Below are positions 513-13,875 of a DNA stretch of 39,075 nucleotides, piece by piece. The notes beneath the pieces were generated by a model. The model ran no database searches. It was given only the letters and a program-made list of their open reading frames with translations, and had not been told where the DNA came from. The position numbers were made by a program, and so were the translations under genes. The DNA is from an uncultured Porphyromonadaceae bacterium (lineage in GTDB: Bacteria > Bacteroidota > Bacteroidia > Bacteroidales > Muribaculaceae): the NCBI GenBank assembly GCA_947176585.1, contig CAMWRI010000007.1, forward strand, positions 1 to 39,075, in the 5' to 3' direction. The first letter of the stretch is position 1, and the number at the start of each line of letters is the position of its first letter.

Positions 513-1703
513 ATGAAGGGGTGGTATGTAAGGGGGCTTGGTTGTGTTTTACATAAGGTATCCAACGGCAATCCAAATATGAGATTGCTGTTTGAACAAT
601 GGGGATATTCCATTTTGAATACCGATGTATCCACTTGGTTTCAGTCTGAAGATACTTCATTCATCAAGAAGGCTATATCCTTAAATCGAGATGGCCTTCG
701 CTTCTTTCGTCTCAAGCATCAGTTTTACTTTGATTGCTTTTACCTTACCGAGACATGTGACTCATCCCTATTTAATGAGTTGAATGAATATCTTATAAAA
801 TTCGGCAGCAATATATTCACCAAAAAGGCGCTGAAACGCACTTATAATTTCTTTGCCGGCAATACCGGAAGCCTAAATGTTGAAGAAAGTCTATTGAAGC
901 ATAGAAATGATAATCGTGCTTTTGGCGAAAAATACGAAAATAGTGTACTCGTGGTGGCTACGGTTTCAGCGGGTAAATCAACACTGATCAATGCTCTTAC
1001 AGGTTCTTACTTTAATAAAGTGAAGAACGGAGCATGCACCAGTCGCATTTGTAAGATTCATAATAAGCCGGTAACGGATGGCATCACGTACAGGAAAGAT
1101 AACGTATTGAATTATAACGCCAATATTGAATCTAAATCGAGTGAGGAAACGAGCGAGGCGGCAATGCATTTCGTGTCAAGTTTAGGGGCTTACCGCGTAT
1201 GCCTGATCGACACCCCGGGAGTTAATAATTCTCGTGATCACAACCATTTGATTATCACATCAGATGCTATAAAAGGGCAGAATTTCGATATGGTAATCTT
1301 CATATCGAATGGGCAGTATAATGGCACTAACGACGAGCGTCAACTTCTCGATCTTCTTCATAACCATAATAAGAAACCTGTCCTTTTTGTGCTGAATCAG
1401 CTGGATTGCTTCAAAAATGGCGTGGATAATATTGCTAAAATGATTGCAGTTTATCATAAGGAACTTACTTCAATAGGGTTCGACTCTCCTAAAGTCTTTC
1501 CCGTTTCGGCTTGGTACGCGTACTTACTTAATGCACAAAAATCATTAGATGAGGAAGAGCAGGAAGAACTGGCAGTGATGCGCCACCGCTTCTCCAAAGC
1601 ATTTTTTGACTTAAACAACTATATAGAATCTGAATCTGAACACGAATATCAGAAAACAGGCTTGAAAGCACTTGAAAACGAAATAATTAAACTACTCAAA
1701 TAA
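513..1703 (+). CDS. dynamin-like GTPase, small (DLP-1)
   Basis: Predicted dynamin-superfamily GTPase of 396 residues. Visible motifs: P-loop ATVSAGKST (about 149-157), switch-II DTPG (233-236) followed by the dynamin-typical VNNSRD, and the base-recognition motif NQLD (295-298). Bacterial dynamin-like proteins bind GTP and remodel or fuse membranes. About 145 residues of unknown N-terminal sequence precede the G domain, and little follows it, so the long helical stalk of full-size dynamins is missing. It probably works with the larger GTPase that starts 15 bases downstream, much as other bacterial dynamin pairs act as heteromers. The frame is open back to a TTG at 333, but that part lies in the structured leader, so ATG 513 is preferred; no clear Shine-Dalgarno is seen. 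Family call firm, substrate and role unknown. Confidence 0.85.
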   Translation: MKGWYVRGLGCVLHKVSNGNPNMRLLFEQWGYSILNTDVSTWFQSEDTSFIKKAISLNRDGLRFFRLKHQFYFDCFYLTETCDSSLFNELNEYLIKFGSNIFTKKALKRTYNFFAGNTGSLNVEESLLKHRNDNRAFGEKYENSVLVVATVSAGKSTLINALTGSYFNKVKNGACTSRICKIHNKPVTDGITYRKDNVLNYNANIESKSSEETSEAAMHFVSSLGAYRVCLIDTPGVNNSRDHNHLIITSDAIKGQNFDMVIFISNGQYNGTNDERQLLDLLHNHNKKPVLFVLNQLDCFKNGVDNIAKMIAVYHKELTSIGFDSPKVFPVSAWYAYLLNAQKSLDEEEQEELAVMRHRFSKAFFDLNNYIESESEHEYQKTGLKALENEIIKLLK

Positions 1704-1717
1704 CCAAATACCAATCA

Positions 1718-4051
1718 ATGAAAAATGTCCGAATCAAGTACAATCCGTATCTGAATACGACTCAGATAGAGGTTGACGGCAAGGCGCCAAAATCCGACAG
1801 CAAGTTGTCGGCAGCAAGCGCCCTGCGCCTGCAGGAGTGGATTGAGACATTGCCCGAGAAACTCATAGAGGAGTATCGCGACCGCAATTTCAAAATCGAG
1901 TTCACGGGAACTCTTGCCGACTACAATGACGTAGTGGCAGCCATAAATGCTTATGGCAATGAAATCAATGCCGAATGTGTTCACCATGCCACTCCCAATA
2001 TCGATGAAGTTGAGGCTACTATTGATCAGATATTTGCAGAAATCAAGGCAAATGAACTTGTTCCCGAGCTAAAGGCACCTGAAATCATTGAGGCTTTTGA
2101 GAAAGCAAAAGACTCGAGTTTTGAAGTAAACGTTGTGGCCACCATGAGTTCCGGCAAGTCAACGCTCATAAACTCCATTCTTCAACAGCAGCTTATGCCG
2201 GCTGCAAATGAAGCCACAACAGCCACGATAGTAAAAATAATCGACACCGATAGTGATCATTTTACTGCAGTGGCCTATGATAAAAGCGGAAACAAGGTTG
2301 CTGAAATAGACAATGTTACGCTTGCGTCAATGAGTGAAATCAATGACGACGAACGTGTAAACACTGTTGAACTTAAGGGTAAGATTCCTTTTGTGCAATC
2401 TACCGGCATGAGACTCTCAATTGTAGACACTCCCGGACCGAATAACTCTCGTGATAAGAGCCATCAGGAGAAGACTTATAGCATGATAGCCAATTCAGAT
2501 AAGTCTCTGGTGTTGTTTGTTATGAATATGGAGCAAAACGGTACCGATGATGAAAATAACCTCCTTGATTATATTTGCCGTCAGATGGCCAAGGGTGGCA
2601 AGCAGAGTCGGGAACGTTTTATATTTGCATTTAATAAGGTTGATAAACTAAATCCGGGTCCAAAAGGAGAGGGTGAGGGCGCGGTACCTAACTATCTTAG
2701 TAAAGCGAAAAATGCTCTTGAAAAAAGTGGTATAGCTAATCCAAATATTTTCCCTGTAGCCTCGCTTCCTGCTCTCCAGCTTCGAGTATTTGATGATGGG
2801 ATTGATTTAGAGGATGAAGATGAGTCAGACGATATCGCAGAGCTTAAGAGCTTTACGACAAGAAGTAGAAAATACCCGGAAATGCATCTGGAGAAATACT
2901 ACGAATTCTCAAATCTGCCTAATAGTGTCCGCGATACTATCGACACTCTTCTTGATGAAATCTCGAAAGAGAATCAGATGGAAGACAAGGCTTCCAGAAG
3001 ATATTCTGAATCGGGGAGGCAGATTACGGAAATCCATACCGGCATAGTGAACATCGAGAAGGCCATAAATATGTACGTGAATAAGTATGCCCGCACTCAG
3101 AAGGTTATGGACCTTGTTCAGGCTTTCAACGGCAAGCTCGAAGAAATGGCCACTATAGCCAAGGTGGAGGATGATATTGCCAAGAACAAGGAAAAAGCTG
3201 CGGAACTTGAGAAACAGATTGCAACAATCAAGCAGAATATCGCTTCTGCCAACAAGGCCAAGAATCTGTCTCAGGAAATCGACAAAATCGATCTCACAGC
3301 CGATGCCAAAAAGGAGCTCTCTGCCTATATCGGCAGCGTGAATAACAGGCTCAGTGAGATGATGTCGGGCGATGACCATGTCAAAAAGGATAAGGCTATT
3401 ATGATGTGTAAATCAATGGAAAAACAAGTCCGCGCGATTAATGCTCAGCTTAATGTTGAACTAAAAAAGATTCTCGAAAAGGCCTACAAGACCACTCTTA
3501 CTAAAATCATCGATGAGTATAAGAAGCATCTTGCAGCGCTAAATGTGGGTATCAATGCGCAGGCTCTTTCGTTCAATCCTATGAGCCTGGTTTCCATGTC
3601 TCTGGCCAACCTCAGCAATATAATCGAGGATAATACAACAGAAGAGGATCACGGAAAGTACGTACAAGAAGAGGGAAGCATTTGGCGTAAAGCAGGCTCT
3701 ATTCTTACTTTTGGCGCGATAGATTACAATAAAACAGTGTGGAAATCAGACTGGAAAGATTTTGTAGATATGGTTGAAGTAACCCATGACTACATAGAGC
3801 CTATCCAAGAACAGCTCAATCACACGCGTGAATCTGCCCTAAAGCATATCGCAAATGAGACTCTGCGTCTGAAAGACCATCTCAAAAAGGAGCTGGTAAA
3901 AATTGATGCCGCTCTCAATTCCAAGCTAGATGCGCTTTCTCAGACCGAGGCCAGCTCCAAAGCAACCGCTGTAGAGATTGCCAATAACGAGGCAAAACTC
4001 AGATGGCTCAAAGAAATCACCCAACGAGTAAGGGATATAATTGACTTCTGA
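1718..4051 (+). CDS. dynamin-like GTPase, large (DLP-2)
   Basis: Bacterial dynamin-like GTPase of 777 residues. P-loop ATMSSGKST at 141-149, switch-I threonines near 167, DTPG at 237-240 followed by PNNSRDKSH, and NKVD at 306-309. A unique N-terminal domain (1-130) precedes the G domain. The remainder is largely helical, with a charged coiled coil near 475-530 and a less charged stretch near 600-690 (GSIWRKAGSILTFG) that could be the membrane-contacting paddle. This is the usual architecture of membrane-acting bacterial dynamins. It follows the smaller GTPase by 14 bases and precedes the next gene by 2 bases, so co-translation is likely. Related pairs are known in antiphage or toxin-export contexts (for example LeoA-type systems); the job here is not known. 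Confidence 0.9.
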   Translation: MKNVRIKYNPYLNTTQIEVDGKAPKSDSKLSAASALRLQEWIETLPEKLIEEYRDRNFKIEFTGTLADYNDVVAAINAYGNEINAECVHHATPNIDEVEATIDQIFAEIKANELVPELKAPEIIEAFEKAKDSSFEVNVVATMSSGKSTLINSILQQQLMPAANEATTATIVKIIDTDSDHFTAVAYDKSGNKVAEIDNVTLASMSEINDDERVNTVELKGKIPFVQSTGMRLSIVDTPGPNNSRDKSHQEKTYSMIANSDKSLVLFVMNMEQNGTDDENNLLDYICRQMAKGGKQSRERFIFAFNKVDKLNPGPKGEGEGAVPNYLSKAKNALEKSGIANPNIFPVASLPALQLRVFDDGIDLEDEDESDDIAELKSFTTRSRKYPEMHLEKYYEFSNLPNSVRDTIDTLLDEISKENQMEDKASRRYSESGRQITEIHTGIVNIEKAINMYVNKYARTQKVMDLVQAFNGKLEEMATIAKVEDDIAKNKEKAAELEKQIATIKQNIASANKAKNLSQEIDKIDLTADAKKELSAYIGSVNNRLSEMMSGDDHVKKDKAIMMCKSMEKQVRAINAQLNVELKKILEKAYKTTLTKIIDEYKKHLAALNVGINAQALSFNPMSLVSMSLANLSNIIEDNTTEEDHGKYVQEEGSIWRKAGSILTFGAIDYNKTVWKSDWKDFVDMVEVTHDYIEPIQEQLNHTRESALKHIANETLRLKDHLKKELVKIDAALNSKLDALSQTEASSKATAVEIANNEAKLRWLKEITQRVRDIIDF

Positions 4052-4053
4052 CG

Positions 4054-4572
4054 ATGAAACAACAATTTAAACAGAAAGTTGATACGGGCAACCTTACGGG
4101 CACCCGTATCAGCCTCTCCAACGAAATGATGCTCGATCCCAGGGGTGAAAGCTTCAAGGAGATGAAAGCCTATGCGGAAACGGCTTTACCAAATCTATAC
4201 GAACCGCACGATGGGGGACTACTTGAAGAAAACCGGGAAAAGTGGACAAAGGAGCTGTTGTTCGCCACAAAAAATGATCTGGACGACAATTTCTCGAAAG
4301 AACGCCTTGAGTATTATTATATTCTGGCCAAAAGTGTGCTGCGAGATAAAGCCGATTCGCTTGACGAAAAGGAACGAAAGTCCAATTCTCGATCGCAAGA
4401 AAATGGTACTGACAAAAACACTCCGAATCCTCTTTACTTGGGCTTGGCAGTAGGTGGACTACTTGTGGGTGGCACCGGATTGCTTGTGGGCAGAATCGTA
4501 GTCGCAGCCGCCGGCCTCGCCGCAGCTGCAATTGGCGGTAGTGTTCTATATAAAAACCAAAACAACAAATGA
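4054..4572 (+). CDS. small protein with glycine-zipper C-terminus
   Basis: 172-residue protein of no recognised family. Residues 1-125 are hydrophilic and rich in Lys, Glu and Asp. Residues about 128-166 form an alanine/glycine-rich hydrophobic stretch (for example LAVGGLLVGGTGLLVG) with regular small residues, a glycine-zipper pattern long enough for a membrane hairpin, ending in a short basic tail. It starts 2 bases after the large GTPase and its stop overlaps the next ATG (ATGA), so it belongs to the same operon. A similar Gly/Ala hydrophobic segment occurs inside the downstream HerA-like ATPase. Inference: a membrane anchor or partner for the GTPase/ATPase complex. It is not a recognised lipoprotein and has no N-terminal signal peptide. 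Confidence 0.75.
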   Translation: MKQQFKQKVDTGNLTGTRISLSNEMMLDPRGESFKEMKAYAETALPNLYEPHDGGLLEENREKWTKELLFATKNDLDDNFSKERLEYYYILAKSVLRDKADSLDEKERKSNSRSQENGTDKNTPNPLYLGLAVGGLLVGGTGLLVGRIVVAAAGLAAAAIGGSVLYKNQNNK

Positions 4573-4790
4573 GCATCAAGAACAAAAATACAATACAATC
4601 AGCAACTAAAGTCGCGAGCACGTGTGATGGACACGCCGGGGTATTTAGCGAAACTTTAACCACAGGAAGTACTTCGTCTGAATCGACGTCTTGCAGCTTC
4701 TCTACAACTTCTAAGTCTGAATATGAAAGCATGAGCGATGGCAAATCTAAAGGTATAAACGAATCGCACAGCACTACTATAGAAGTGTGA
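4569..4790 (+). CDS. Ser/Thr-rich small protein, ended by in-frame TGA
   Basis: 73 codons from an ATG overlapping the previous stop (ATGA) to TGA at 4788-4790. Composition is extremely rich in Ser and Thr with Glu and Lys, without hydrophobic core or cysteine pattern, so it is probably disordered. The same style of Ser/Thr/Glu sequence appears in the next protein around residues 286-322 and 381-432. The reading frame does not end naturally at the TGA: 41 further sense codons of identical composition follow and stop exactly at 4914-4916, overlapping the start of the ATPase gene. The gene was therefore probably 115 codons long, and the TGA is a premature stop, a recoding site or a sequencing difference. 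Function unknown. Confidence 0.55.
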   Translation: MSIKNKNTIQSATKVASTCDGHAGVFSETLTTGSTSSESTSCSFSTTSKSEYESMSDGKSKGINESHSTTIEV

Positions 4791-4916
4791 GAAACCGTTA
4801 CACGTTGCTACTCAAAAACAGAGTCCATAGCGTCACCTCGAAGCACCGGTAATAGTGAAACCACCACTTTCTCTGATACAATCACAGAAACAAGCACAAA
4901 TCATAGCAACCAATGA
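4791..4916 (+). pseudogene. in-frame continuation of the Ser/Thr-rich ORF after TGA
   Basis: From 4791 the frame of the preceding small ORF runs on for 41 sense codons with the same Ser/Thr/Glu-rich composition (ending near TITETSTNHSNQ) to TGA at 4914-4916. That stop overlaps the ATPase start at 4913 as ATGA, the same coupling used at 4569. This would be unlikely for random sequence. It is best read as the 3' part of one gene interrupted at 4788. Confidence 0.6.
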
Positions 4917-7900
4917 GCTCGATATGGGATAGAAATGAGCCTATTGCGGGAGAGCCGCAAAAAGGACAGCTTGTGCCGGACAATCCAGCCCGTGATTTGC
5001 CCAAATACAAGGAACCGGAGACCGTCGCCCCGCTGATGAATATTGATTCGCGGCTCTTCGGCGCAAATCAGGCATTGACATTGGTGGACAACGTGGTGCT
5101 GAAAAAATACCTCACCAAACTCTCCAATATGAGCATAGAGCCGATGGGTGAGGAATGGAATCTCGAAGACGCTTTGAAGGAGGTAATCATCTTCAAGGTC
5201 AATAAGATGGTCTACGAGAAAGATGAGTATGCTACAGAGAAATTCAACAGCATCATCAGCGCCATGACCTACATTAACGGATCGGTGTTCATGATTGTGG
5301 ATGGACATAAAGATAAGACCGATTTTTATCTGGGCGTAAAACTGGAGTCCACAACCGACAAATCTGTCAAATCATATTCCGACACCCTTAAGCGTGCCCT
5401 TATGGGACAATTTCCGGGTGCAGAAATCACGGGTATATCGGAGATCGGAGTAGGCAAAAAAACATCTAAGCAGGCACAGTTAATTGCCGATATTAAAGAG
5501 GAGGTAAAGACCATCAGTATATGTTCCGGCGTGCCGGCTATCAAGAACAGCAAGGGCGAATATACGAATGCCACTTTTGTTCAGGGTATCGAAAAATTTG
5601 CCTCGGCTATGGCAGGAAAGCGATACACAGCTATCATCCTTGCCACAAATGTTCCGGATGCTGAAATTGCCAAACTAAGATTGGGATATGAAAATATCTA
5701 CTCTCAACTGTCGGCAGCATCTACGCATCAACTTGCCTATTCCACTAACGAATCTCTCGCAAATGCAGTGAGCAGGAGCAAAGGTGTTTCGAATTCGGTT
5801 GGTACTACAGATACAACAGGAGAAAGTACATCCGAATCTCAATCTCGTACTCACACGACATCTGAATCCCATGCGCACACCGAAGGGGAATCTAAGGAGA
5901 ACTTCTGGGGAAAAGCCGCGAATTTTTCGGAATCGCTTATAACAGCCGGTGCATATCTCACCGCTACAGGAGTGGGCGCACCACTGGGTGCAGTAATGAT
6001 GGGTGCAGGAGTAGTGGCCGGTGTCGGTGGCATGATTGGAGCGAAGCAACTTAGCAAAAGTGATACAGACACATTATCTGAGTCCGACAGCGAGACTAAT
6101 GGCGTAACCAATACCATAAACAAGTCGCACGCAGTTACAGAAAATCGTACGGAAAGTTTTACTGAAACTGAAGGCCAAACTTCAACCGTTGGAGAGACCA
6201 AGAATTTCACTCTGACGATTCAGGATAAGCACGTTCAGGAGATTCTGAAAAGGATTGATAAACAGCTTGAAAGAATGGCGGTGTCGGAAAGCACCGGACT
6301 CTGGGCCACTTGCGCCTATTTCCTGTCGTACGGAGAAGATCGAGCTTCCGCCGAATCCGGTGCGTCTATCTATCGTTCTATAGTGCAAGGAGAACAATCC
6401 GGAGTGGAGCAATCGGCAATTAATACATGGTACTTCGCACAGTCCGACTCCAATTTCGCGAATCTTACAAAGTATCTGTGCAGCCTGTCGCATCCGGTCT
6501 TCTCCTTCAGGCAGAACCAAATGTTAAATACTATATCTCTGCCTCCTACCAATATGCTTAGCAGCAAGGAAGTGGCCATCGCTCTTGCCTTACCACGCAA
6601 AAGCGTGCCGGGATTTCCGGTGGTTGAACACACTTCATTGGGCAAGGAAGTGGTGAGATTGGGTACAATTAAATCCGACCGGCCCTATGTTCCGTTTGAG
6701 CTCGGTTGCATATTCGATCAGGGAATCGCCCGAAAATACAATAAGGTATTCCTTGACAAAAACAGTCTCACTCAACACACTTTCGTAACCGGTTCCACCG
6801 GCTGCGGAAAGAGCGAGACTGTGTATAAACTCATCGATAGCATACGTGAAGCCGATGCAAAGTTCCTGATAATTGAGCCGGCAAAAGGTGAGTATAAAAA
6901 AGTTTTCGGTACGGAGCACGTGTATGGCACAAATCCATTGACGTCCAATCTGCTTAAAATAAATCCTTTCAAATTTACCGAAGGAGTGCACGTACTCGAA
7001 CATGCCGACCGTCTGATAGAGATATTCAACGTGTGCTGGCCAATGTATGCGGCCATGCCGGCTGTGCTCAAGGAAGCCGTGCTTAATGCCTACGAAGATT
7101 GCGGATGGGACTTGATAAAGTCTGTCAACAAGTATTCGAGCCAAATCTTCCCTACGTTTTCAGACCTTATCTGGGAACTGGAGACGGTGATAGAACTCTC
7201 TGAATACTCCGAGGAAGTAAAAAGCAATTACAAAGGTTCACTGGTAACTCGTGTTAAGTCTCTTGCCAACGGCATAAATGGCGAGATATTCTCAGGACAA
7301 GAAATCGGAGATGCGAAGCTTTTCGACGAAAACGTGATAGTGGATATAAGCCGTATTGGCTCGCAGGAAACCAAGGCTCTGATTATGGGCGTACTTATAA
7401 TGCGTCTTAATGAATACAGAGCCAACAGCGGTATTAAATCAAACAGCGAACTGCGTCACGTCACTATTCTCGAAGAAGCTCATAATCTACTGAAGCGTTG
7501 CTCGCAGGAGCAAACAGCCGAAGGGAGCAATATCGCAGGCAAATCGGTGGAGATGATATCCAATGCTATAGCAGAGATGCGTACTTATGGCGAAGGGTTC
7601 ATTATCGTAGATCAATCTCCGGGGGCTGTGGATATATCCGCAATCCGCAACACCAATACGAAAATCATAATGCGCCTGCCCGAAGAGTCGGACCGCAAGG
7701 TAGCCGGAAAATCGGCGGCCATGAAGGATTGCCAGATTGACGAGATTGCCAAGCTACCTACCGGTGTTGCCGTTGTATATCAGAACGATTGGGAAGAACC
7801 GGTACTGTGTCATATCGAAAAATACTCCGGTTCTCGTCATGAGTACGAGTTCAAGGAAGACGTTTCCGAGATTTTCGACATCAATACGCTGGTTGTAGAA

Positions 7901-8332
7901 ATCTTGAAATTCATGTTCCAGACGAAAGTTTCACAACCCCTGGATTTCGATCTTGAAGTCATTAAAGGCCACATCTCAAGTTCGGCACTTCCAACGTATG
8001 TGAAAATCAACGTGCTTGAAGCAGTGCAGGAGTATGAGAAAAGTGGTAAAGCAGCCATCTGGGATAACAATGAATTCGTGAAATTCTCGTGGGTAATATC
8101 CGGACTCTTCGGTATTAAACAGCGTGTGGCCAAGATTGTAAAAACGAAGTCGGGCTTCGATGAGTTAACATCCGGACTTAAAGCCGTAATACACGATACA
8201 ATGAACGACATCCCTAAGGAATTGGATATGCCGATAATCCAGAGCCTGCTGCGCGATTATTCGACAAGAGATGAAGTAAGTCTCAGGAAATACAGCGACT
8301 GGCTTAAAGCAGCACGAAATCTCAAGAATTAA
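4913..8332 (+). CDS. HerA/FtsK-family (DUF87-like) ATPase with Ser/Thr-rich glycine-zipper insert
   Basis: 1139-residue ATPase. The C-terminal half has Walker A GSTGCGKS (627-634) and Walker B VTILEEAHN (850-858), followed by a conserved block around IIVDQSPGAVD and RLPEESDRKVAG, which is typical of HerA/DUF87 hexameric pumping ATPases. The N-terminal half (1-280) is unrecognised. Between them lies an odd insert: Ser/Thr/Glu-rich (about 286-322), a Gly/Ala hydrophobic hairpin (about 340-380), then Ser/Thr/Glu-rich again (about 381-432). That segment suggests membrane insertion, which HerA proteins normally lack. HerA relatives move DNA or protein through rings and occur in repair, conjugation and antiphage islands. 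It ends the dynamin operon, overlapping the previous frame by 4 bases. No NurA or SIR2 partner is nearby. Confidence 0.85.
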   Translation: MSSIWDRNEPIAGEPQKGQLVPDNPARDLPKYKEPETVAPLMNIDSRLFGANQALTLVDNVVLKKYLTKLSNMSIEPMGEEWNLEDALKEVIIFKVNKMVYEKDEYATEKFNSIISAMTYINGSVFMIVDGHKDKTDFYLGVKLESTTDKSVKSYSDTLKRALMGQFPGAEITGISEIGVGKKTSKQAQLIADIKEEVKTISICSGVPAIKNSKGEYTNATFVQGIEKFASAMAGKRYTAIILATNVPDAEIAKLRLGYENIYSQLSAASTHQLAYSTNESLANAVSRSKGVSNSVGTTDTTGESTSESQSRTHTTSESHAHTEGESKENFWGKAANFSESLITAGAYLTATGVGAPLGAVMMGAGVVAGVGGMIGAKQLSKSDTDTLSESDSETNGVTNTINKSHAVTENRTESFTETEGQTSTVGETKNFTLTIQDKHVQEILKRIDKQLERMAVSESTGLWATCAYFLSYGEDRASAESGASIYRSIVQGEQSGVEQSAINTWYFAQSDSNFANLTKYLCSLSHPVFSFRQNQMLNTISLPPTNMLSSKEVAIALALPRKSVPGFPVVEHTSLGKEVVRLGTIKSDRPYVPFELGCIFDQGIARKYNKVFLDKNSLTQHTFVTGSTGCGKSETVYKLIDSIREADAKFLIIEPAKGEYKKVFGTEHVYGTNPLTSNLLKINPFKFTEGVHVLEHADRLIEIFNVCWPMYAAMPAVLKEAVLNAYEDCGWDLIKSVNKYSSQIFPTFSDLIWELETVIELSEYSEEVKSNYKGSLVTRVKSLANGINGEIFSGQEIGDAKLFDENVIVDISRIGSQETKALIMGVLIMRLNEYRANSGIKSNSELRHVTILEEAHNLLKRCSQEQTAEGSNIAGKSVEMISNAIAEMRTYGEGFIIVDQSPGAVDISAIRNTNTKIIMRLPEESDRKVAGKSAAMKDCQIDEIAKLPTGVAVVYQNDWEEPVLCHIEKYSGSRHEYEFKEDVSEIFDINTLVVEILKFMFQTKVSQPLDFDLEVIKGHISSSALPTYVKINVLEAVQEYEKSGKAAIWDNNEFVKFSWVISGLFGIKQRVAKIVKTKSGFDELTSGLKAVIHDTMNDIPKELDMPIIQSLLRDYSTRDEVSLRKYSDWLKAARNLKN

Positions 8333-8342
8333 CAACACTTCA

Positions 8343-8376
8343 AATGGCCGTGTGAGGTGTTCTTCACACGGCCATT
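8343..8376 (+). terminator. strong hairpin terminator after the ATPase gene
   Basis: A perfect 13-bp inverted repeat (8343-8355 with 8364-8376) around an 8-base loop, starting 11 bases after the ATPase stop. A long U tract is missing, as is common in Bacteroidota terminators. It probably ends the GTPase/ATPase transcript and, being symmetric, could act in both directions. Some read-through into the toxin genes is possible because no clear promoter was seen between 8377 and 8395. Confidence 0.7.
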
Positions 8377-8395
8377 AATCATAAAGTATTAAAAT

Positions 8396-9097
8396 ATGGA
8401 TGAATTAGGCCAGGTTCTCAAAGAAATAAAAGAAGCTACTAATGGAGAAAACTCCATGCTGAAACCACTTGAAAAAGACTTGGATTCTCCTATAGGCTTG
8501 GACCGAGATCCGATGATGGAGTGTGTAGAAACGCCCAATGAAAATGTCAGTAATGACCTGCTCCCGGAAGAAGAGTTAAACCGCCCTATATCAGATAATA
8601 TAGAACCAGAGGATATGGGATTATCTGAAGAAGTAAAAGCGGAGATAATCGAAAATACAGACTGGAGTGAAGCTACTATTGATTCTATAAAGTCGGATAA
8701 AGAGGCTGCAGTTTACTTAGAAGCTAATCTTAAGGAAGTAAACGGCAACCTTGAACGTACAGATATCGATTGGGATGCAAAAATACCTGAAGACAAAATC
8801 GACCGTATGCGCTCGCTGTATGGTGATGAGGTTGCTGATAAATGGGCTAATAAAACCAACTTAGACCTTATTAAAGAAGGGAAAGCACCTTATGGACGCG
8901 ATGGAGAACGCATAAATTTGCATCACATAGGTCAAAAGACGGATAGCCCCTTGGCGGAATTGACTGATTCTGAGCATAAGCAGTACGATGCAGTTCTTCA
9001 TGATAAAACTAAGACCTCTGAGATTGAACGCCCTATGTTCAAATCAGAACGTTGCCAATATTGGAAGGCTCGCTATGAATCTCTAAAGAATAATTAG
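8396..9097 (+). CDS. LHH-type HNH/Endo VII nuclease, toxin-like
   Basis: 233-residue protein. The C-terminal part carries INLHHIGQ (LHH at 175-177) followed by a PLAEL element, the signature of the LHH group of the HNH/Endonuclease VII superfamily, whose members are mostly DNA-cleaving tips of polymorphic toxins. The preceding block (about 125-170, with DKIDRMRSLYGDEVADKWAN) is a common lead-in to that domain. The first 120 residues are acidic and unrecognised, with no signal peptide or known delivery domain. It starts 20 bases after the terminator hairpin and 4 bases before a small gene that may encode its immunity protein. Nuclease call fairly firm; target and delivery inferred. Confidence 0.75.
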   Translation: MDELGQVLKEIKEATNGENSMLKPLEKDLDSPIGLDRDPMMECVETPNENVSNDLLPEEELNRPISDNIEPEDMGLSEEVKAEIIENTDWSEATIDSIKSDKEAAVYLEANLKEVNGNLERTDIDWDAKIPEDKIDRMRSLYGDEVADKWANKTNLDLIKEGKAPYGRDGERINLHHIGQKTDSPLAELTDSEHKQYDAVLHDKTKTSEIERPMFKSERCQYWKARYESLKNN

Positions 9098-9101
9098 TAC
9101 T

Positions 9102-9368
9102 ATGTCAACATTTTTTCTAACTGCTAAGCACGACATGCACATTGCCCATGGTAATGACATAAAAAAGGGCGATAAGTTTGAAGTGTATGTAGGCAAGCCA
9201 TTTATCAATTCTGCTAATATCTTCAACAATCCCGAATCACGAGCCAGTATTATCAGGCAACTCAGTAATCGCGATATCGACCTTGTGGCAAATCGCAAAG
9301 AATATTTTCTAAGTGGAGGCCATTTTCAGGTGGAAGAACGTAGAAATATGATTGGTAATCATTTTTAA
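9102..9368 (+). CDS. small protein after LHH nuclease, possible immunity
   Basis: 88-residue protein, no recognised domain; the N-terminal half (HGNDIKKGDKFEVYVGKPF) looks like a beta-rich fold and the middle has RQLSNRDIDL. It begins 4 bases after the nuclease stop, and its coding sequence reaches the edge of the next toxin-like gene. Small genes directly after polymorphic-toxin nucleases are usually immunity proteins, so that role is inferred from position only. It could instead be an accessory or adaptor encoded with both toxins. Confidence 0.6.
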   Translation: MSTFFLTAKHDMHIAHGNDIKKGDKFEVYVGKPFINSANIFNNPESRASIIRQLSNRDIDLVANRKEYFLSGGHFQVEERRNMIGNHF

Positions 9369-9378
9369 TGTGTGCTAT

Positions 9379-10062
9379 ATGCTTGGATTTGAAAACATAG
9401 AAAAATCTAAAGAATGTCTCCTTAAAAGTGTGGACATTTCCGGCATACTACACAAAATTGAAGAATCGGAACTGAATGCTCCGCTCGAAACCCCAAAATA
9501 CAGTCAAAAGATAGAGGGAATTCAAAAAGCGCCTGAAGACTCTGTGCAGATCAGTGAGATAAGCGATTGTCTTTCTGGCTTCCACGAATTGAATTTCGAG
9601 AATTGGGTAAATTTGTCGCCATCAGAACGGATGCATATTCTTCAAGACGCCGAGAACAAGATTGCTGAAATTTCTCATCGATTTCCTTGCTCTATAAAAA
9701 TAAGCGATATGCCGGTGGGAGAATATGGGAACTACTACTCAGATGATAAGTCTATAACCTTGAATGCCCGTTATGTAAATGCTACCGATTTCAACAGTTA
9801 TAAAGAAACTTTAGATACTTTAGTGCACGAAGGACGGCACGCATATCAAGATTATAATATTAATGAAAATCCGGTTCACCCTCGCAGCGGAGAAGTTACA
9901 AACTGGAAATGGAATGAATTTGAAATAGGCTATCAAAATGCAGAATTATGCGGTTTTGAAGCCTATGCAATGCAACCTGTCGAAGCAGATGCACGGGCAT
10001 TTGCTGAAGATGTGCTTTGCGCTTTTTTTAAAAGACAACCTGAATATGAAACAGTTGGTTGA
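9379..10062 (+). CDS. HExxH zincin metallopeptidase-like protein, toxin-like
   Basis: 227 residues from ATG 9379 (an earlier in-frame ATG at 9352 lies inside the previous gene). The motif VHEGRHAYQ (H150, E151, H154) is an HExxH zinc site, and a downstream VEADARAFAE with E202 is a good third ligand about 48 residues later, as in gluzincin-type peptidases. The first 60 residues are a variable polar leader, comparable in place and style to that of the LHH nuclease. No signal peptide is present. Such short zincins occur as toxin domains in Bacteroidales polymorphic toxin loci. Its 3' end overlaps the next small gene by 17 bases, suggesting translational coupling. Proteolytic activity and toxicity are inferred. 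Confidence 0.65.
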   Translation: MLGFENIEKSKECLLKSVDISGILHKIEESELNAPLETPKYSQKIEGIQKAPEDSVQISEISDCLSGFHELNFENWVNLSPSERMHILQDAENKIAEISHRFPCSIKISDMPVGEYGNYYSDDKSITLNARYVNATDFNSYKETLDTLVHEGRHAYQDYNINENPVHPRSGEVTNWKWNEFEIGYQNAELCGFEAYAMQPVEADARAFAEDVLCAFFKRQPEYETVG

Positions 10063-10327
10063 AACACTCGTAAAACGCGGCTATCCGATAGAAGCGGCAG
10101 AGCAAACGGCCGTTAATCTACAGAAAATGGCTCCCGAATTAAAAGAGGCATTGGATATATGGTTGACAAAATTTACTATGCCGATTATTGAGGTAGAAGG
10201 CTATTCTACAGATGGATTGATGAGCCGTTTCAAAGGTATGACCTATCCGGCAGCTTTGCTGACTCTTGACTGGCTTATTAGAGAACCAATAAAAGCAAAA
10301 CAAATAATCGAAAAAGGAATAAGGTAA
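10046..10327 (+). CDS. small protein overlapping zincin gene, possible immunity
   Basis: 93-residue protein starting at ATG 10046 inside the end of the zincin gene in another frame. An earlier in-frame ATG at 9938 would overlap by 125 bases and is not favoured. The first 25 residues (LVKRGYPIEAAEQTAVNLQK) resemble a UBA-like three-helix start. The remainder is helical with one mildly hydrophobic segment and no recognised domain. The overlapping stop/start is typical of effector-immunity pairs, so this is a candidate inhibitor of the metallopeptidase. Confidence 0.55.
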   Translation: MKQLVETLVKRGYPIEAAEQTAVNLQKMAPELKEALDIWLTKFTMPIIEVEGYSTDGLMSRFKGMTYPAALLTLDWLIREPIKAKQIIEKGIR

Positions 10328-10436
10328 ACCCATGCAAGGATATAATTACAATCAGTAATGTGGTAATATCGTAGCCAACATTAATAACTTTAATAACGAT
10401 AAAATATTATATGCATACATCCAAGTGCCAGAGTGA

Positions 10437-10445
10437 TACCTTTTG
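10437..10445 (+). promoter_or_regulatory. weak -7-like element before zinc-ribbon gene
   Basis: TACCTTTTG resembles the -7 element TAnnTTTG with one extra T, 41 bases before the ATG at 10486. The 158-base gap 10328-10485 is AT-rich and otherwise shows no gene. No convincing -33 box was seen, so this is a suggestion only. Confidence 0.2.
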
Positions 10446-10485
10446 TTTCTGTGCAAAGATTCATATTTATTGATCATATAAGACT

Positions 10486-10752
10486 ATGAGTAAGAAAATC
10501 AGATGCCCCCATTGTGGGCATCGTTTTGAAGAATCCGCTTGGTCTAAAGCCGGGAGATGTGGAATCTATACCTTGGAGGGTGTAGTTAAATTTGGTACAC
10601 AATTGGCTGTTAGTTACTTTACTCGCAATAATGGCTCGATTATTCAAAATGGAGCTGGTAAAGTAGCAGAGGGAGTGACAGGAGATATTAATGAATTTAC
10701 ATGGGGCGACTTGACGTGCCCAAAATGTAAAAAGAATTTGGGCAATCCGTAA
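10486..10752 (+). CDS. small zinc-ribbon protein
   Basis: 88-residue protein with two CxxC pairs, CPHCGH near the N-terminus and CPKCKK near the C-terminus, the layout of a zinc ribbon with a long central insert. The insert (about 25-70) is uncharged and includes GVVKFGTQLAVSYF, perhaps a buried or membrane-touching helix. It stands alone between two gaps and starts a run of small unknown genes. DNA, RNA or protein binding cannot be told from the sequence. Confidence 0.6.
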   Translation: MSKKIRCPHCGHRFEESAWSKAGRCGIYTLEGVVKFGTQLAVSYFTRNNGSIIQNGAGKVAEGVTGDINEFTWGDLTCPKCKKNLGNP

Positions 10753-10781
10753 AGTCAATCATAATGAAAAGATTCCTCTAT

Positions 10782-10796
10782 GCAAATTTCATTTGC
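10782..10796. repeat. short perfect inverted repeat
   Basis: GCAAAT TTC ATTTGC: 6-bp arms with a 3-base centre, in the 80-base gap before the gene at 10833. It could be an operator half-site pair or a weak hairpin. There is no supporting context beyond its intergenic position. Confidence 0.4.
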
Positions 10797-10832
10797 GGAG
10801 GTAGTAAAGCCGATAAATAAATTACAATTACT

Positions 10833-11273
10833 ATGACCATCAACATTTCATTTGTCGAAATTGCCGAGCGCGTGAAGATACGCTATGGTGTGGATGTGGA
10901 GCTGGCCCGGGTGGGAGACCAAGAAGTGCACATCACCTATGTGGAGCCGAAAAAAGTGCACTACCGCTCCATTAAGGTGTCGGGATATATCCGTATCGAC
11001 GAGGTGCGTCACGACGCTGTGGTCATTTCGGTCAGCCTCGAAAAGGAGGCTTTTATTGATGAAGCCACAGCATCCAAGAAAAAAATCAAGCCGATTACGG
11101 ATGAGGATGTGGCTTCGGCCCTGGAGTGGGCAACAAGACGTAGTGGGTTGTACCGCGCCCCTTACCCCATGTATCTTTTAATGGTGGTCAACAGATTATA
11201 CCCGGAAGGGTTGGCCCTCAACGACATAGCGGTGACTGCCGACGGGCTGGAAATCGAAGCTGAACTAAAATAA
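10833..11273 (+). CDS. hypothetical protein, orphan cluster
   Basis: 146-residue soluble protein with no recognised family. Alternating hydrophobic positions (VHYRSIKVSGYIRI, AVVISVSLEKEAF) suggest a beta-rich N-terminal half. A helical region with a Tyr/Pro/Met-rich stretch near 110-125 follows. The C-terminus (IAVTADGLEIEAELK) resembles the end of the next protein (VAIGYDDITIDLELK), which hints at a shared fold. It lies 11 bases upstream of that gene, so they are co-transcribed. Function unknown. Confidence 0.65.
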   Translation: MTINISFVEIAERVKIRYGVDVELARVGDQEVHITYVEPKKVHYRSIKVSGYIRIDEVRHDAVVISVSLEKEAFIDEATASKKKIKPITDEDVASALEWATRRSGLYRAPYPMYLLMVVNRLYPEGLALNDIAVTADGLEIEAELK

Positions 11274-11284
11274 TCAAATAACAA

Positions 11285-11698
11285 ATGAAACCGATGAAGT
11301 TTATTCGCCTGGAAAACGGCGATGTTGAGGAGGTAGACTATGACAACGGTGTGGATTCATCGCAGTCGGGAGTGGATGAGCTGAGCGTGAAGCAATCGCA
11401 AAACGCTACTGTAGCTTCCATCGAAGTCCCCGTGACGCTGCGCATCGACGATGAGAGCCAAACCGTGATGGTGTCGTATGGCTGTCCTACGGAGTTCAAT
11501 AAGCTGATTGCCGACGTTGTGGCACTTCTAAATAATAGGAATCATGAGCTAAATGAGGGGGCGGAAGCAGACAGTGACAAATGTATAGCCATCCAGATTT
11601 CTTGGCCGAGATACGTGGGCGAGCAGATAGAGAAAGACGCGATTAATAGTGTGGCGATTGGCTATGATGACATAACTATTGATCTGGAACTTAAATAA
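11285..11698 (+). CDS. hypothetical protein, orphan cluster
   Basis: 137-residue acidic protein, family unknown. Residues 1-40 are polar (DNGVDSSQSGVDELS), then beta-like strands (VPVTLRIDDESQTVMVSY), a helix, and an ending closely similar in pattern to that of the previous protein. This suggests the two are distant paralogues or share one small domain. It is separated by 11 bases upstream and 7 bases downstream from its neighbours, so it belongs to the same operon. No catalytic motif or signal peptide seen. Confidence 0.6.
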   Translation: MKPMKFIRLENGDVEEVDYDNGVDSSQSGVDELSVKQSQNATVASIEVPVTLRIDDESQTVMVSYGCPTEFNKLIADVVALLNNRNHELNEGAEADSDKCIAIQISWPRYVGEQIEKDAINSVAIGYDDITIDLELK

Positions 11699-11705
11699 TC
11701 AACAG

Positions 11706-11906
11706 ATGATGAGTAAGAAGAACTACGTGTGCCTGGATTGCGGCGAGAAATTCGAGTGGAGCCGCCTGGAGAGCATGATCGAGCCGCTGATGCACCCGGA
11801 GGTGCTGAGTGATCCTGCGCCGTCGCCGTTATGGGGATTGCTCGCGAAGTGCCGCTGCCCCAAGTGCCGCTCGGAGCGAGTGAGGAAGATTTATAAATGC
11901 GGGTGA
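11706..11906 (+). CDS. very small zinc-ribbon protein
   Basis: 66 residues from ATG 11706 (a second ATG follows at once at 11709; an earlier ATG at 11679 lies inside the previous gene). Cysteines occur as CLDC near the start and CRCPKC near the end, a four- or five-cysteine zinc ribbon. No other features are visible. It is the second small zinc ribbon of this cluster, so nucleic-acid or protein contacts are plausible, but no partner is known. Confidence 0.6.
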   Translation: MMSKKNYVCLDCGEKFEWSRLESMIEPLMHPEVLSDPAPSPLWGLLAKCRCPKCRSERVRKIYKCG

Positions 11907-11921
11907 AAAAGATTTATAAAT

Positions 11922-12266
11922 ATGGAAGAAAAATTACGAACCGACAATAAAATCTGGGCTTTGTTATATATGGGCTCGGATATGACTCGCAACTGGTTGC
12001 TGCATGATGTGGAGGCCGGTCAAGGGAGGCTGTGCTTCCACGTAAATGGAAGTAAATATGCCGGGAAGGTGAGCCTTATTGCCAACCAGGATGAACGTTC
12101 CATCGCGATTGAAGTGGTATATACCGGCGATGATAATCCTGCCGAAACAGAAGTTTTGGCACAAGTGACATATAGCGATATGATGTGCGCCCAAGAAGAT
12201 AAAGGGGCTTCGATTTCTCGGGAGGAATTAGAACGGTTTAAGGAAGAATACGGCTTTTCCGAGTAA
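11922..12266 (+). CDS. hypothetical protein, orphan cluster
   Basis: 114-residue soluble protein, not recognised. It reads like a beta-sandwich (RLCFHVNGSKYAGKVSLIA, SIAIEVVYTGDD) with an acidic helical tail (SREELERFKEEYGF). The start ATG is 15 bases after the zinc-ribbon stop, and the next gene begins 10 bases downstream. Without a family match nothing can be said on role beyond co-expression with its neighbours. Confidence 0.55.
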   Translation: MEEKLRTDNKIWALLYMGSDMTRNWLLHDVEAGQGRLCFHVNGSKYAGKVSLIANQDERSIAIEVVYTGDDNPAETEVLAQVTYSDMMCAQEDKGASISREELERFKEEYGFSE

Positions 12267-12276
12267 TATAAGAATC

Positions 12277-13077
12277 ATGACAGTAGACGAATTTATTGAC
12301 GATTATAGCCTGCGGCGTGCCCGGGAGATTCAGGCCGATATGCTTGCGGCAAGTAGCCGCAGGCCGAAGGAGTGGACATTTGAAGAGGTTACGGGCCGCA
12401 CCACCGTGTCTTTCGATGGTTGCCCGTTCCGGCTCAAGAGCGAGGGGATGGTGCTGTGGCTGCGTGCGTTGCTGCTCTTCATCGCGGCTGATGATGACGA
12501 GTCGAGGTATGGCTTTTCGGATGGTGACCAGGTCTTAATCGGATGCCGTGCAATCGGTGAACAGCTCGGCGGCAATTTCTGGATTGTAAATCCCTCGGGA
12601 TGCCCGCAGGTGCTCGTACGGTGGCTTCTTAAGCTAATGGACGATGATGAGGACTTTGAAGGCGCGGGAGTTATCATATCAACAATTGAAGAGTCTCTTT
12701 ATCAAAAATTTGAAAGCCAAGAAATTCAGCCTGATTTGTATTGGGACTGTTGGAAAGGCGTGCTGCAATGCAATGAGTATCTCCTTGAGTTTTTCGCCAA
12801 GACTGGACGCTTCACCGACTCTACTGAGGCAGCCATGGTCAAGTTGCGCGTCGCGCTTGATGATTGTATCTCGCAAATTGAGGAATTGGGCATGGAAAAC
12901 GCCTTTGCCGTGGAAGCCGACATCTTCGAGCATATAATTAAGTTGATACCCGTGATAGAGCAGAAAGGCCGCGAGGACGTGACGCACCGGTTATACGAAT
13001 TTGCCCGCGACTACTACCGGGCCACGCGTCGCGATGTGCTGGCCGAGAAGTTCACTGCCAAGCTGGCCGGCCGTTAG
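12277..13077 (+). CDS. hypothetical protein, orphan cluster
   Basis: 266-residue, mostly helical protein of unknown family. The N-terminal 60 residues are polar; a hydrophobic core helix (MVLWLRALLLFIA) is followed by a run of acidic residues (DDDES) and a Gly-rich patch near 80-95. The C-terminal half looks like helical pairs ending in a basic tail (RRDVLAEKFTAKLAGR). No catalytic motif or signal peptide. It is followed by a 64-base gap with a small GC-rich hairpin (CCTC..GAGG near 13098-13110) and then another orphan. Confidence 0.55.
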   Translation: MTVDEFIDDYSLRRAREIQADMLAASSRRPKEWTFEEVTGRTTVSFDGCPFRLKSEGMVLWLRALLLFIAADDDESRYGFSDGDQVLIGCRAIGEQLGGNFWIVNPSGCPQVLVRWLLKLMDDDEDFEGAGVIISTIEESLYQKFESQEIQPDLYWDCWKGVLQCNEYLLEFFAKTGRFTDSTEAAMVKLRVALDDCISQIEELGMENAFAVEADIFEHIIKLIPVIEQKGREDVTHRLYEFARDYYRATRRDVLAEKFTAKLAGR

Positions 13078-13141
13078 GATCTTAAGACTTCTCTGCGCCT
13101 CCGCGCGAGGCCTCATCCCTTGCGGATAATAATCAACGACG

Positions 13142-13864
13142 ATGAACAGGCAGAAAAAAAAGCAATTGAGCATCGAGCTCGGCATCCCCTTGGACGAGAT
13201 ACGCAGGGAGCTGGATGAATCGTGCAGTTTCCGTGCGCATATCGAAAAGCAATATTCTCCTTCCAGGTACAACGTGCGAGAGACCCGGAGGGTTATACAT
13301 GAGTGTGTGTGCTCCGCCGATGGCTGCCGGGTGCCGGAGGCGAGAGACAATTACCTTGCAGATGCTGCCTATGTAGCGGCAATGTATATCGAGTGGACAT
13401 TTGGCTATAAAATGTGGAAGCCCGATTTCTTGGGTTGGGCCCGGGATACGGCCCGGTCGCTGCGCTCCAAGTATTCCGATGCGCGTTTAGCTCTGATTTC
13501 GTCCATTCTCAACCTGGTAGATCTCGTAGATACGGGAAATACAGATGAGATATTGCAGCACATGAAATATCTCGAAAGAAAATGTGCCGAGCCGTTCAAA
13601 ATCCCGTTGAAGAGAGATTCAAAACTCTACGAACGCTACAAAATGATGTGCCTGCGAGTGGCAATATACTATTTGGAGTACACAGATACTCCCAGGGCGG
13701 AGTGTCTGAAGATTTTTGAATACATCAAACTTCATTGCGGCAGATTTCAAAGACCCTACCGGCCAATCGAATTCAAAGAAGATAGTGAAATCTTTGAAAT
13801 GCCAGAACCGCATGAACCCATAGCATTTATATCGAGTAGGAGCAGGATTTACTCAAGCGAGTAA
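13142..13864 (+). CDS. hypothetical protein, orphan cluster
   Basis: 240-residue, basic N-terminus (MNRQKKKQLS) and all-helical appearance; unrecognised. Several Tyr/Trp-rich helices (for example YVAAMYIEWTFGYKMW) and a Cys-containing helix near 140-175 suggest a compact scaffold-like fold. The C-terminus is acidic then Ser-rich. It precedes the 409-residue gene by 11 bases, so the two are probably made together and may form a complex. Confidence 0.55.
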   Translation: MNRQKKKQLSIELGIPLDEIRRELDESCSFRAHIEKQYSPSRYNVRETRRVIHECVCSADGCRVPEARDNYLADAAYVAAMYIEWTFGYKMWKPDFLGWARDTARSLRSKYSDARLALISSILNLVDLVDTGNTDEILQHMKYLERKCAEPFKIPLKRDSKLYERYKMMCLRVAIYYLEYTDTPRAECLKIFEYIKLHCGRFQRPYRPIEFKEDSEIFEMPEPHEPIAFISSRSRIYSSE

Positions 13865-13875
13865 CAACGAATCTG

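Follow-up and report, generated by a model that had tools for sequence, protein, structure and literature searches.

Organization of the locus

We analyzed a 39,075-nucleotide stretch of DNA (the window) that spans positions 1 to 39,075 of the forward strand of contig CAMWRI010000007.1, from assembly GCA_947176585.1 of an uncultured Porphyromonadaceae bacterium of the order Bacteroidales. It carries a gene cassette encoding two dynamin-like GTPases (dyn1 and dyn2), a small glycine-rich protein, and a HerA/DUF87-type ATPase, followed by toxin-like genes and their candidate immunity genes. An earlier note on this DNA had placed a candidate membrane system at 513..8332. These limits proved too short: the linked cargo genes reach at least position 10,327, and the toxin and immunity genes, which are the constant companion of the cassette, had been missed. 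Judged by sequence, the window holds two toxin cassettes, one of an LHH nuclease and one of a metallopeptidase, reaching 10,327. The genes are listed below (aa, amino acids).

513..1703, + strand: dyn1, small dynamin-like GTPase, 396 aa (Pfam Dynamin_N, E = 1.4e-15)
1718..4051, + strand: dyn2, large dynamin-like GTPase, 777 aa (Dynamin_N, E = 1.8e-14)
4054..4572, + strand: small protein with a glycine-rich C-terminal membrane segment, 172 aa (no Pfam match)
4569..4790, + strand: Ser/Thr-rich frame with an in-frame stop at 4788-4790, reading open past the stop to 4916
4913..8332, + strand: ATPase, 1139 aa (DUF87, E = 4.5e-11), with N-terminal domains, an insert, and a HerA/VirB4-fold RecA core
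8396..9097, + strand: toxin 1, 233 aa, with a C-terminal LHH nuclease domain of the HNH/EndoVII superfamily (PF14411 LHH, E = 3.8e-27)
9102..9368, + strand: candidate immunity protein to toxin 1, 88 aa (same position in locus L008, 44% identity, E = 3e-26, and in genome G023)
9352..10062, + strand: toxin 2, metallopeptidase-like, with HExxH as HEGRH (start codon uncertain)
10046..10327, + strand: candidate immunity protein to toxin 2, 93 aa (39% identity over 92 aa, E = 1.5e-20, to the protein 3′ of the metallopeptidase toxin of locus L012)

The two dynamins and the HerA-fold, DUF87-type ATPase that the earlier note had named were borne out by these matches. Its description of five consecutive frames held for four of them (dyn1, dyn2, the glycine-rich protein, and the ATPase), while the Ser/Thr-rich frame is broken by its stop. 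Likewise, the claim that all overlaps and gaps measure 14 bases or less is correct only for a frame read through the stop; with the stop counted, 122 bases lie between the Ser/Thr-rich frame and the ATPase. The remaining spacing is tight, with 14 bases between dyn1 and dyn2, 2 bases between dyn2 and the small protein, and a 4-base overlap between the small protein and the Ser/Thr-rich frame, whose open 3′ end (4916) overlaps the ATPase start. Since the frame is unbroken in a genus mate of the window (G023), the interruption is particular to the window or its assembly. In many relatives, there is no space for such a frame, as the small gene reaches the ATPase start or stops close to it.

In a pattern search, 62 of 67 dyn1 relatives had the G1 and G3 motifs; the window protein also matched the PADLOC LeoA model (2.2e-7). 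The predicted structure of dyn2 has the dynamin fold, preceded by an N-terminal domain of ~93 residues (about 1718-1996) that is also found in partners without a GTPase. A hydrophobic stretch lies inside the last 75 aa of 73 of the 76 small-protein relatives. The ATPase insert (about 5744-6202) is Ser-rich and hydrophobic and was modeled with low confidence; residues 278-430, where model confidence is very low, are probably disordered. Among 77 ATPase relatives, 75 had a 60-residue stretch with a Ser/Thr fraction of at least 0.30, and 58 had a hydrophobic stretch, so that the membrane-like insert described in the earlier note is real. No RNA families were found in the window with Rfam, and promoter and terminator scans of the window gave results close to shuffle level.

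Conservation and spread of the cassette

A scan of one genome per species confirmed at least 531 relatives, of which the best 80 were kept for the counts of gene order and cargo. Since they were picked by likeness to the window, the sample overstates the uniformity of the wider family. Gene order was assessed in the 71 loci with at least 4.3 kb of upstream sequence, using mechanical gene calls in which split genes count as misses. The order dyn1-dyn2-small protein-ATPase on one strand was present in 64 of the 71, and dyn2 was found in 69. The seven misses (L021, L022, L028, L040, L057, L070, and L084) are due in part to broken genes (L022 and L040). Because the order recurs in so many loci, the arrangement is, at the level of sequence, conserved far beyond chance; consistent co-occurrence was what the earlier note had named as support for a system.

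Complete sets were found in Bacteroidota (L008), Bacillota (L018), Pseudomonadota (L059), and Spirochaetota (L066), and partial copies in Fusobacteriota (L022) and Synergistota (L028); the cassette occurs in both monoderms and diderms. A tblastn search of plasmids returned ATPases of ~40 to 43% identity in five Lactococcus records and in plasmids of E. coli, Ruminococcus albus, Treponema, and Exiguobacterium. The annotated Lactococcus, E. coli, and Treponema plasmids carry the series dynamin-dynamin-hypothetical protein-ATPase-HNH nuclease-small gene. The small last gene is annotated as SMI1/KNR4 in the E. coli, Treponema, and Exiguobacterium plasmids. In R. albus and Exiguobacterium, a single uncharacterized protein stands where the dynamins are found elsewhere.

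A quick tree built from 84 ATPases put the Bacteroidota and the Pseudomonadota each on one side of a branch, suggesting that spread between the two phyla happened long ago or seldom; families were mixed within Bacillota. The Veillonella caviae and [Clostridium] aminophilum records hold near-identical loci, a sign of recent transfer if neither record is contaminated. Distribution is sporadic. A close copy was present in 1 other of 36 genomes of the window’s genus, with distant relatives in two. When 5426 E. coli genomes were searched at the DNA level for near copies of the E. coli ATPase gene, a single one had a hit. Among 295 genomes of the window’s order, full-length dyn2 was found in the window’s genome only, besides two matches to the GTPase domain of ~84 bits, and a close ATPase in the window’s genome and in one copy at a contig end.

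Toxin cargo and immunity-like genes

An open frame of at least 110 aa was found near the ATPase stop in all 80 loci. It overlaps the stop in 59 of the 80, the commonest gap being −4 bases (41 of 80). A toxin-type domain was recognized by pattern in 79 of 80, and an immunity-like gene came next in 79 of 80, L075 being the sole exception in both counts; the genes do lie beside variable toxins, a setting that the earlier note had thought might matter. For classification, we used 87 cargo proteins, from the best 80 loci, five plasmid loci, L089, and the window; L006, L007, L088, and L090-L093 were left out, and the toxin class of L015, L057, L060, L066, and L075 was reassigned by hand. Pfam named a toxin family in 68 of the 87: Colicin-DNase and WHH (34 each), LHH (22), Endonuclea_NS_2 (9), Gln_amidase, a papain fold (2), and AHH (1). 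These results agree with the pattern classes, which add 10 restriction endonuclease (REase)–like and 7 metallopeptidase-like proteins. Outside the classes are L003, a 515-aa glycine-rich protein, and L075, which is cut short.

A small gene follows the toxin in 85 of the 87 loci. The families recognized among these 85 were SMI1/KNR4 (SUKH, 35), DUF6985 (17), DUF7832 (4), and YezG-like (1). Clustering of 84 of the proteins (L089 left out) gave eight clusters, seven of which, including one consisting of a single protein, go with a single toxin class; the eighth is linked to WHH, LHH, and one endonuclease. The cargo protein and the product of the next gene therefore look like a toxin and its cognate immunity protein. 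No signal peptide–like or N-terminal hydrophobic stretch was found in any of the 87 toxins, so another route would be needed if they leave the cell. Pfam matched the 87 cargo proteins to 13 families, none of which is a known trafficking family.

In the window, toxin 1 has LDSPI and LNRPI motifs in its variable N-region and is 41 to 64% identical to the toxins of L008, L076, L073, and L002. The 88-aa protein encoded behind it has no Pfam match, and it is 35% identical to the N-terminus of the L012 toxin. Because a related domain thus opens a toxin, the case for its immunity role, made from sequence and gene position, is the weaker one of the two. Toxin 2 is 34% identical to the L012 toxin (E = 2.6e-10) and 44% identical to that of L096; its matches to DUF3920, DUF6782, and SprT-like families are weak and fall under the cut-offs.

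A constant front and an exchangeable back

To compare the two ends of the toxins with the ATPase, we used 77 loci below 90% ATPase identity and only pairs of toxins of different classes, taking the first 45 and the last 95 residues. L003, L075, and L089 were left out here and in the motif analysis below. N-terminal similarity correlated with ATPase identity (r = 0.493, reached in 0 of 2000 permutations), whereas C-terminal similarity did not (r = 0.002, reached in 900 of 2000). In 33 of the 77 loci, the nearest ATPase neighbor has a toxin of a different class. For example, the toxins of L031, L035, L036, and L037 begin with a common RF[AS][DE]SPLG front and end in REase, endonuclease, WHH, and metallopeptidase domains, respectively. 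A toxin N-terminus that tracks the ATPase, combined with a C-terminus that does not, is, as a sequence pattern, the hallmark of polymorphic toxins.

Within the front, 35 of 69 toxins (ATPase identity below 80%) had the motif [LAFYVI][DN].P[LIVMF] among their first 75 residues, compared to a mean of 2.6 and a maximum of 7 in 500 shuffles and to 1 of 69 C-termini. The motif occurs in seven of the eight pattern classes; none of five metallopeptidases has it, though toxin 2 of the window has ELNAPL close to its N-terminus. Since the motif is common to several toxin classes, it argues for a functional front. An independent set of 32 later-fetched regions was also used, omitting five duplicates, L185, whose ATPase is broken, and L161 and L174, whose pieces carry no ATPase. 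There, the motif was present in 3 of 5 dynamin-type toxins and in 0 of 19 cargo proteins from other branches (Fisher p = 0.005), which suggests that the dynamin-type machine reads it. The motif, roughly LD-x-P-[LIV], is a candidate for a new trafficking signal. A second, SPLGK-type motif was dropped: it was present in 27 of 69 fronts (shuffle mean 11.4, maximum 21) but also in 21 of 69 C-termini.

Dynamins and ATPase apart from each other

The association of dyn2 with the ATPase was also examined in 344 genomes from the order of G331, a genome picked for having the cassette, with cut-offs of E ≤ 1e-60 for dyn2 and E ≤ 1e-150 for the ATPase. The earlier note would have counted its reading as refuted if dynamins and ATPase each occurred mostly with other partners, and this is so only in part. 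Dyn2 was found in 12 genomes and adjoins the ATPase in 10; in G599, both genes are present on different short contigs, and in G612, dyn2 and the small protein occur without the ATPase. The ATPase family also includes branches joined to different partners; the ATPase was found in 31 genomes, 20 of them without dyn2 at the cut-off.

By eye, 13 of the 19 cargo proteins from branches without full-length dyn2 are toxin-like, 3 are long and glycine-rich, and 3 are unclear. Upstream regions were read in ten of the loci from these branches. The partner is a 720-aa GTPase of a different type in L170, L173, and L176 and, by eye, a Sel1-type repeat protein in L165, L167, and L168. L181 has a WYL-like regulator and a glycine-rich protein; the upstream proteins of L183 and L186 resemble, by eye, the DO-GTPase and GAP1 described in PMC7159879; and no recognizable partner was seen upstream in L184. 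The N-domain of dyn2 was detected in ATPase-linked proteins without a P-loop pattern in L003, L178, L179, and L182 (E from 2e-20 to 2e-22) and, more weakly, in proteins without this pattern in L116-L119 and L184. A likeness of the Sel1-type partners of L165, L167, and L168 to the dyn2 N-domain was persuasive by eye, but it was not reported by the profile and is not claimed.

Several other arrangements were seen. In L116-L119 and L184, the GTPase-less protein with the dyn2 N-domain lies downstream of the ATPase, directly or behind an acidic protein. The cargo proteins of L003, L178, L179, and L182 (422 to 515 aa) have a long, glycine-rich hydrophobic C-terminal region and are possibly pore formers. 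At L096:3119-9392, a Ser-rich sister ATPase of 905 aa adjoins a protein with weak Hsp70/actin-fold matches instead of dynamins; a glycine-rich membrane protein is also encoded there, together with the metallopeptidase-like relative of toxin 2 mentioned above. L174, the G612 locus, carries a dyn2 with an extra N-terminal extension and the small protein on a 9.2-kb contig that has no ATPase, next to nadB- and nadC-like genes, and may be a remnant or a separate use. In L161, from G599, a single short contig carries two copies each of dyn1 and dyn2 in tandem, together with two small proteins. An edge of the toxin-linked family is marked by wider DUF87 relatives from plasmids and one genome of the window’s order (L109, L110, L111, L006, and L108), whose neighbors are not toxin-like (GTPase, Hsp70, DUF2357, or unknown proteins).

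Comparison with known systems

Polymorphic toxins have swappable C-terminal toxin domains behind a constant N-region, with adjacent immunity genes whose families include SUKH. The cassette is like these systems in its variable C-terminal toxin domains, constant N-region, and class-matched adjacent immunity-like gene. Type VII secretion systems combine an FtsK/HerA-superfamily ATPase, with tandem ATPase domains, with small toxins and immunity genes, and their cargo is of the WXG100/LXG type. The cassette shares with them a RecA-like ATPase of this superfamily beside small toxins with immunity genes; unlike them, it contains dynamins, and its ATPase has one matched stretch and one RecA core, without tandem FtsK/SpoIIIE domains. 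Pfam gave no WXG100/LXG match to any of the 87 cargo proteins (E ≤ 1e-3) or to P0003. Membership in type VII secretion was therefore rejected, for want of both such substrates and tandem ATPase domains. The type VII ATPase YueA/EssC is of the FtsK-HerA type (PMC3482391). The cassette also differs from the polymorphic toxin systems of PMC3482391 in that its cargo is short, has no recognized trafficking domain, and has dynamins and a HerA/VirB4-fold ATPase as linked partners; the first 300,000 characters of that article do not contain the word dynamin. Self-protection of polymorphic toxin producers by immunity proteins is described in PMC7159879.

The HerA-fold core of the ATPase is shared with HerA antiphage complexes (SIR2-HerA, or Nezha, and DUF4297-HerA); unlike them, the cassette ATPase has extra N-terminal domains and the Ser-rich insert, and the cassette carries toxin/immunity cargo. 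Pfam, NCBIfam, and PADLOC scans found no SIR2, DUF4297, or NurA among the window genes scanned, and the annotations of five plasmid neighborhoods had none either, in line with the earlier note. A DNA repair role of the HerA-NurA kind was rejected, as no NurA was among the scanned genes and toxin linkage was seen in 79 of 80 loci. A phage origin was rejected as well: a scan by pattern of 2.9 million viral contigs led to only 7 confirmed relatives, and 50,697 phage records contained 2. The ATPase model also matches the fold of the VirB4/TrwK conjugation ATPases; hhalign against one VirB4 sequence gave a profile match that was not significant, with a probability of 7.6% over only 56 columns around the P-loop. 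Type IV secretion membership was rejected because there are no other type IV secretion genes inside the cassette: in the plasmid loci with annotation, the stretch from dyn1 to the immunity gene contains no channel gene, and on the Lactococcus plasmid, the VirB4-like, VirD4-like, and relaxase genes are located away from the cassette.

The dynamin-like GTPases of E. coli LeoABC act together and have been proposed to help toxin release via vesicles (PMC4159319, abstract). Unlike the cassette, LeoABC has no ATPase partner named in that abstract, and the likeness found here is to the GTPase domain; the PADLOC LeoA and LeoBC matches on dyn1 fall within residues 104-360. The predicted fold of dyn2 is that of SynDLP, BDLP, IniA, and, in PDB 5owv/5oxf, a bacterial dynamin pair; occurrence in pairs is a shared feature as well. 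Unlike these bacterial dynamins, dyn2 has its extra N-domain, barely covered by the matches, and lies in an ATPase/toxin locus.

Proposed mechanism and alternatives

We consider it just about probable, from the sequence patterns described above, that the cassette is an undescribed machine for the deployment of polymorphic toxins, probably between bacteria. From the gene unit, the cargo pattern, the match of toxin to immunity gene, and the predicted folds of dyn2 and the ATPase, we infer docking, motif reading, transport, and target as follows. The two GTPases and the tail-anchored small protein would build or remodel a membrane site, at which the dyn2 N-domain would dock the ATPase; this role is suggested by the fact that the domain stays ATPase-linked where the GTPase is missing. 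The dynamin-type machine would recognize the toxin N-region via the LD-x-P-[LIV] motif, and the ATPase would push the toxin into or across the membrane site, by translocation or by loading of vesicles or fusion sites. The toxin would then reach other bacteria, with the immunity protein shielding the producer and its kin. The earlier note had inferred that the ATPase moves DNA or protein at a membrane site; linkage to toxin cargo argues for protein as the substrate.

Several observations weigh against this deployment model. Orphan immunity genes would be expected in competitors, but in a search of 291 genomes of the order (E ≤ 1e-5), the window alone yielded a homologue of the toxin 2 immunity protein, which gives inter-bacterial use no support. 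A recombination point just behind the ATPase could also make the toxin N-termini track it, leaving the function of the front unproven. The motif is missing from 34 of 69 toxins, 4 of the 35 matches have the form A[DN]SP, the regular expression was composed after the sequences were seen, and the independent set is small, with two of its 19 non-dynamin cargo proteins being identical. No outer-membrane or cell wall–spanning part was recognized in the cassette. Finally, a WYL regulator lies directly upstream in 20 of 68 loci. Such regulators are often linked to defense genes.

The last two points speak for the main rival, intracellular defense, in which a membrane-bound dynamin/ATPase complex would hold the toxin or sense the entry of a phage or plasmid and then release or activate the toxin in the same cell, the immunity protein acting as a brake. 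HerA-fold ATPases are known antiphage cores (according to PDB titles), PADLOC models for HerA, mad8, LeoA, and LeoBC match portions of the cassette proteins, and an Abi or McrC gene lies within about 8 kb of the cassette on two plasmids. The PADLOC matches are, however, limited to single domains, and SIR2, DUF4297, and NurA are missing from the scanned genes. Moreover, in PMC7159879, a swappable toxin with a class-specific immunity gene is the pattern of polymorphic toxins, whereas NTP-dependent intracellular systems use NTPase switches as control instead. Overall, we regard intracellular defense as rather unlikely, and we consider it improbable that the cassette serves a plasmid or an integrative and conjugative element, whether its action is at the mating junction or consists in killing cells that have lost the element or do not carry it. 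Six plasmid records (five Lactococcus and one E. coli) match at least 80% of the ATPase, the examined Lactococcus and E. coli plasmids are typed as conjugative, the ATPase core shares the fold of conjugation ATPases, and the sporadic spread described above, with a single E. coli genome and the near-identical Veillonella caviae and [Clostridium] aminophilum loci, would fit a mobile element. On the other hand, L018, L022, and L072 are on chromosome-size records, addiction by itself requires no dynamins, and on the Lactococcus plasmid, the cassette is separate from the conjugation genes. It is very improbable that toxin cassettes just insert behind a membrane-stress or DNA-handling machine to which they have no functional tie. 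Linkage alone could yield the N-terminal correlation, and in wider ATPase relatives (the cyanobacterial L109 and L110, and L108) the next gene is not toxin-like; yet a toxin-type gene comes next in nearly all of the 80 loci, across six phyla, most often overlapping the ATPase stop, and different toxin classes have the N-terminal motif in common.

A bolder version of the deployment model, which we put forward tentatively and as less than an even prospect, is a new type of delivery machine. At contact sites or vesicles, the dynamin pair and the tail-anchored protein would fuse or split membranes, and the ATPase, docked through the dyn2 N-domain, would load cytosolic toxins tagged with LD-x-P-[LIV]. 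Since only membrane remodeling would be needed, such a machine could do without an envelope-spanning channel in monoderms and diderms alike. The dynamin set would be one swappable module, and the same ATPase/toxin logic would be coupled elsewhere to other NTPases or repeat proteins.

Many bacterial dynamins are not known to have a clear biological task. A dynamin pair tied to a motor ATPase and a toxin/immunity cassette would offer one that is directly testable. No description of a dynamin pair with a HerA-like ATPase and a toxin cassette was found among the papers listed by full-text searches of the open-license PMC literature, nor in passages of PMC3482391, PMC12839542, PMC10952713, and PMC7159879 or the abstract and outline of PMC4159319. 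The cargo logic is already known from polymorphic toxins (PMC3482391); what would be new is the machine. If export is true, polymorphic toxins would gain an additional trafficking route, which occurs in several phyla and has Lachnospiraceae and a dairy Lactococcus plasmid among its carriers, as well as a short tag with which further cargo could be sought. If defense is true instead, the cassette would be a membrane-sited defense with interchangeable effectors and built-in antidotes, which would be equally unusual.

Surroundings of the cassette

The cassette lies in a block that the window shares with G023:

525..13959, + strand: block common to the window and G023, 93 to 96% DNA identity (blastn pieces 525-10327, 10832-13069, and 13131-13959, with short gaps)

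The scanned genes between 10,833 and 15,105 had no Pfam match; those at 10833-13864 are 95 to 96% identical in G023 and possibly belong to the same mobile block. Upstream of dyn1, positions 1-433 are 84.5% identical in G023, below the level of the coding block, and have no Rfam match. Positions 15134-38996 hold a separate, mainly minus-strand array in which Pfam detected Sel1 repeats, PP2C, and FHA domains and in which two Ser/Thr kinases, a caspase-like protein, a LytTR-type protein, and several proteins with a common repeated N-terminal domain were recognized by eye. This array looks like a signaling or conflict locus of its own.

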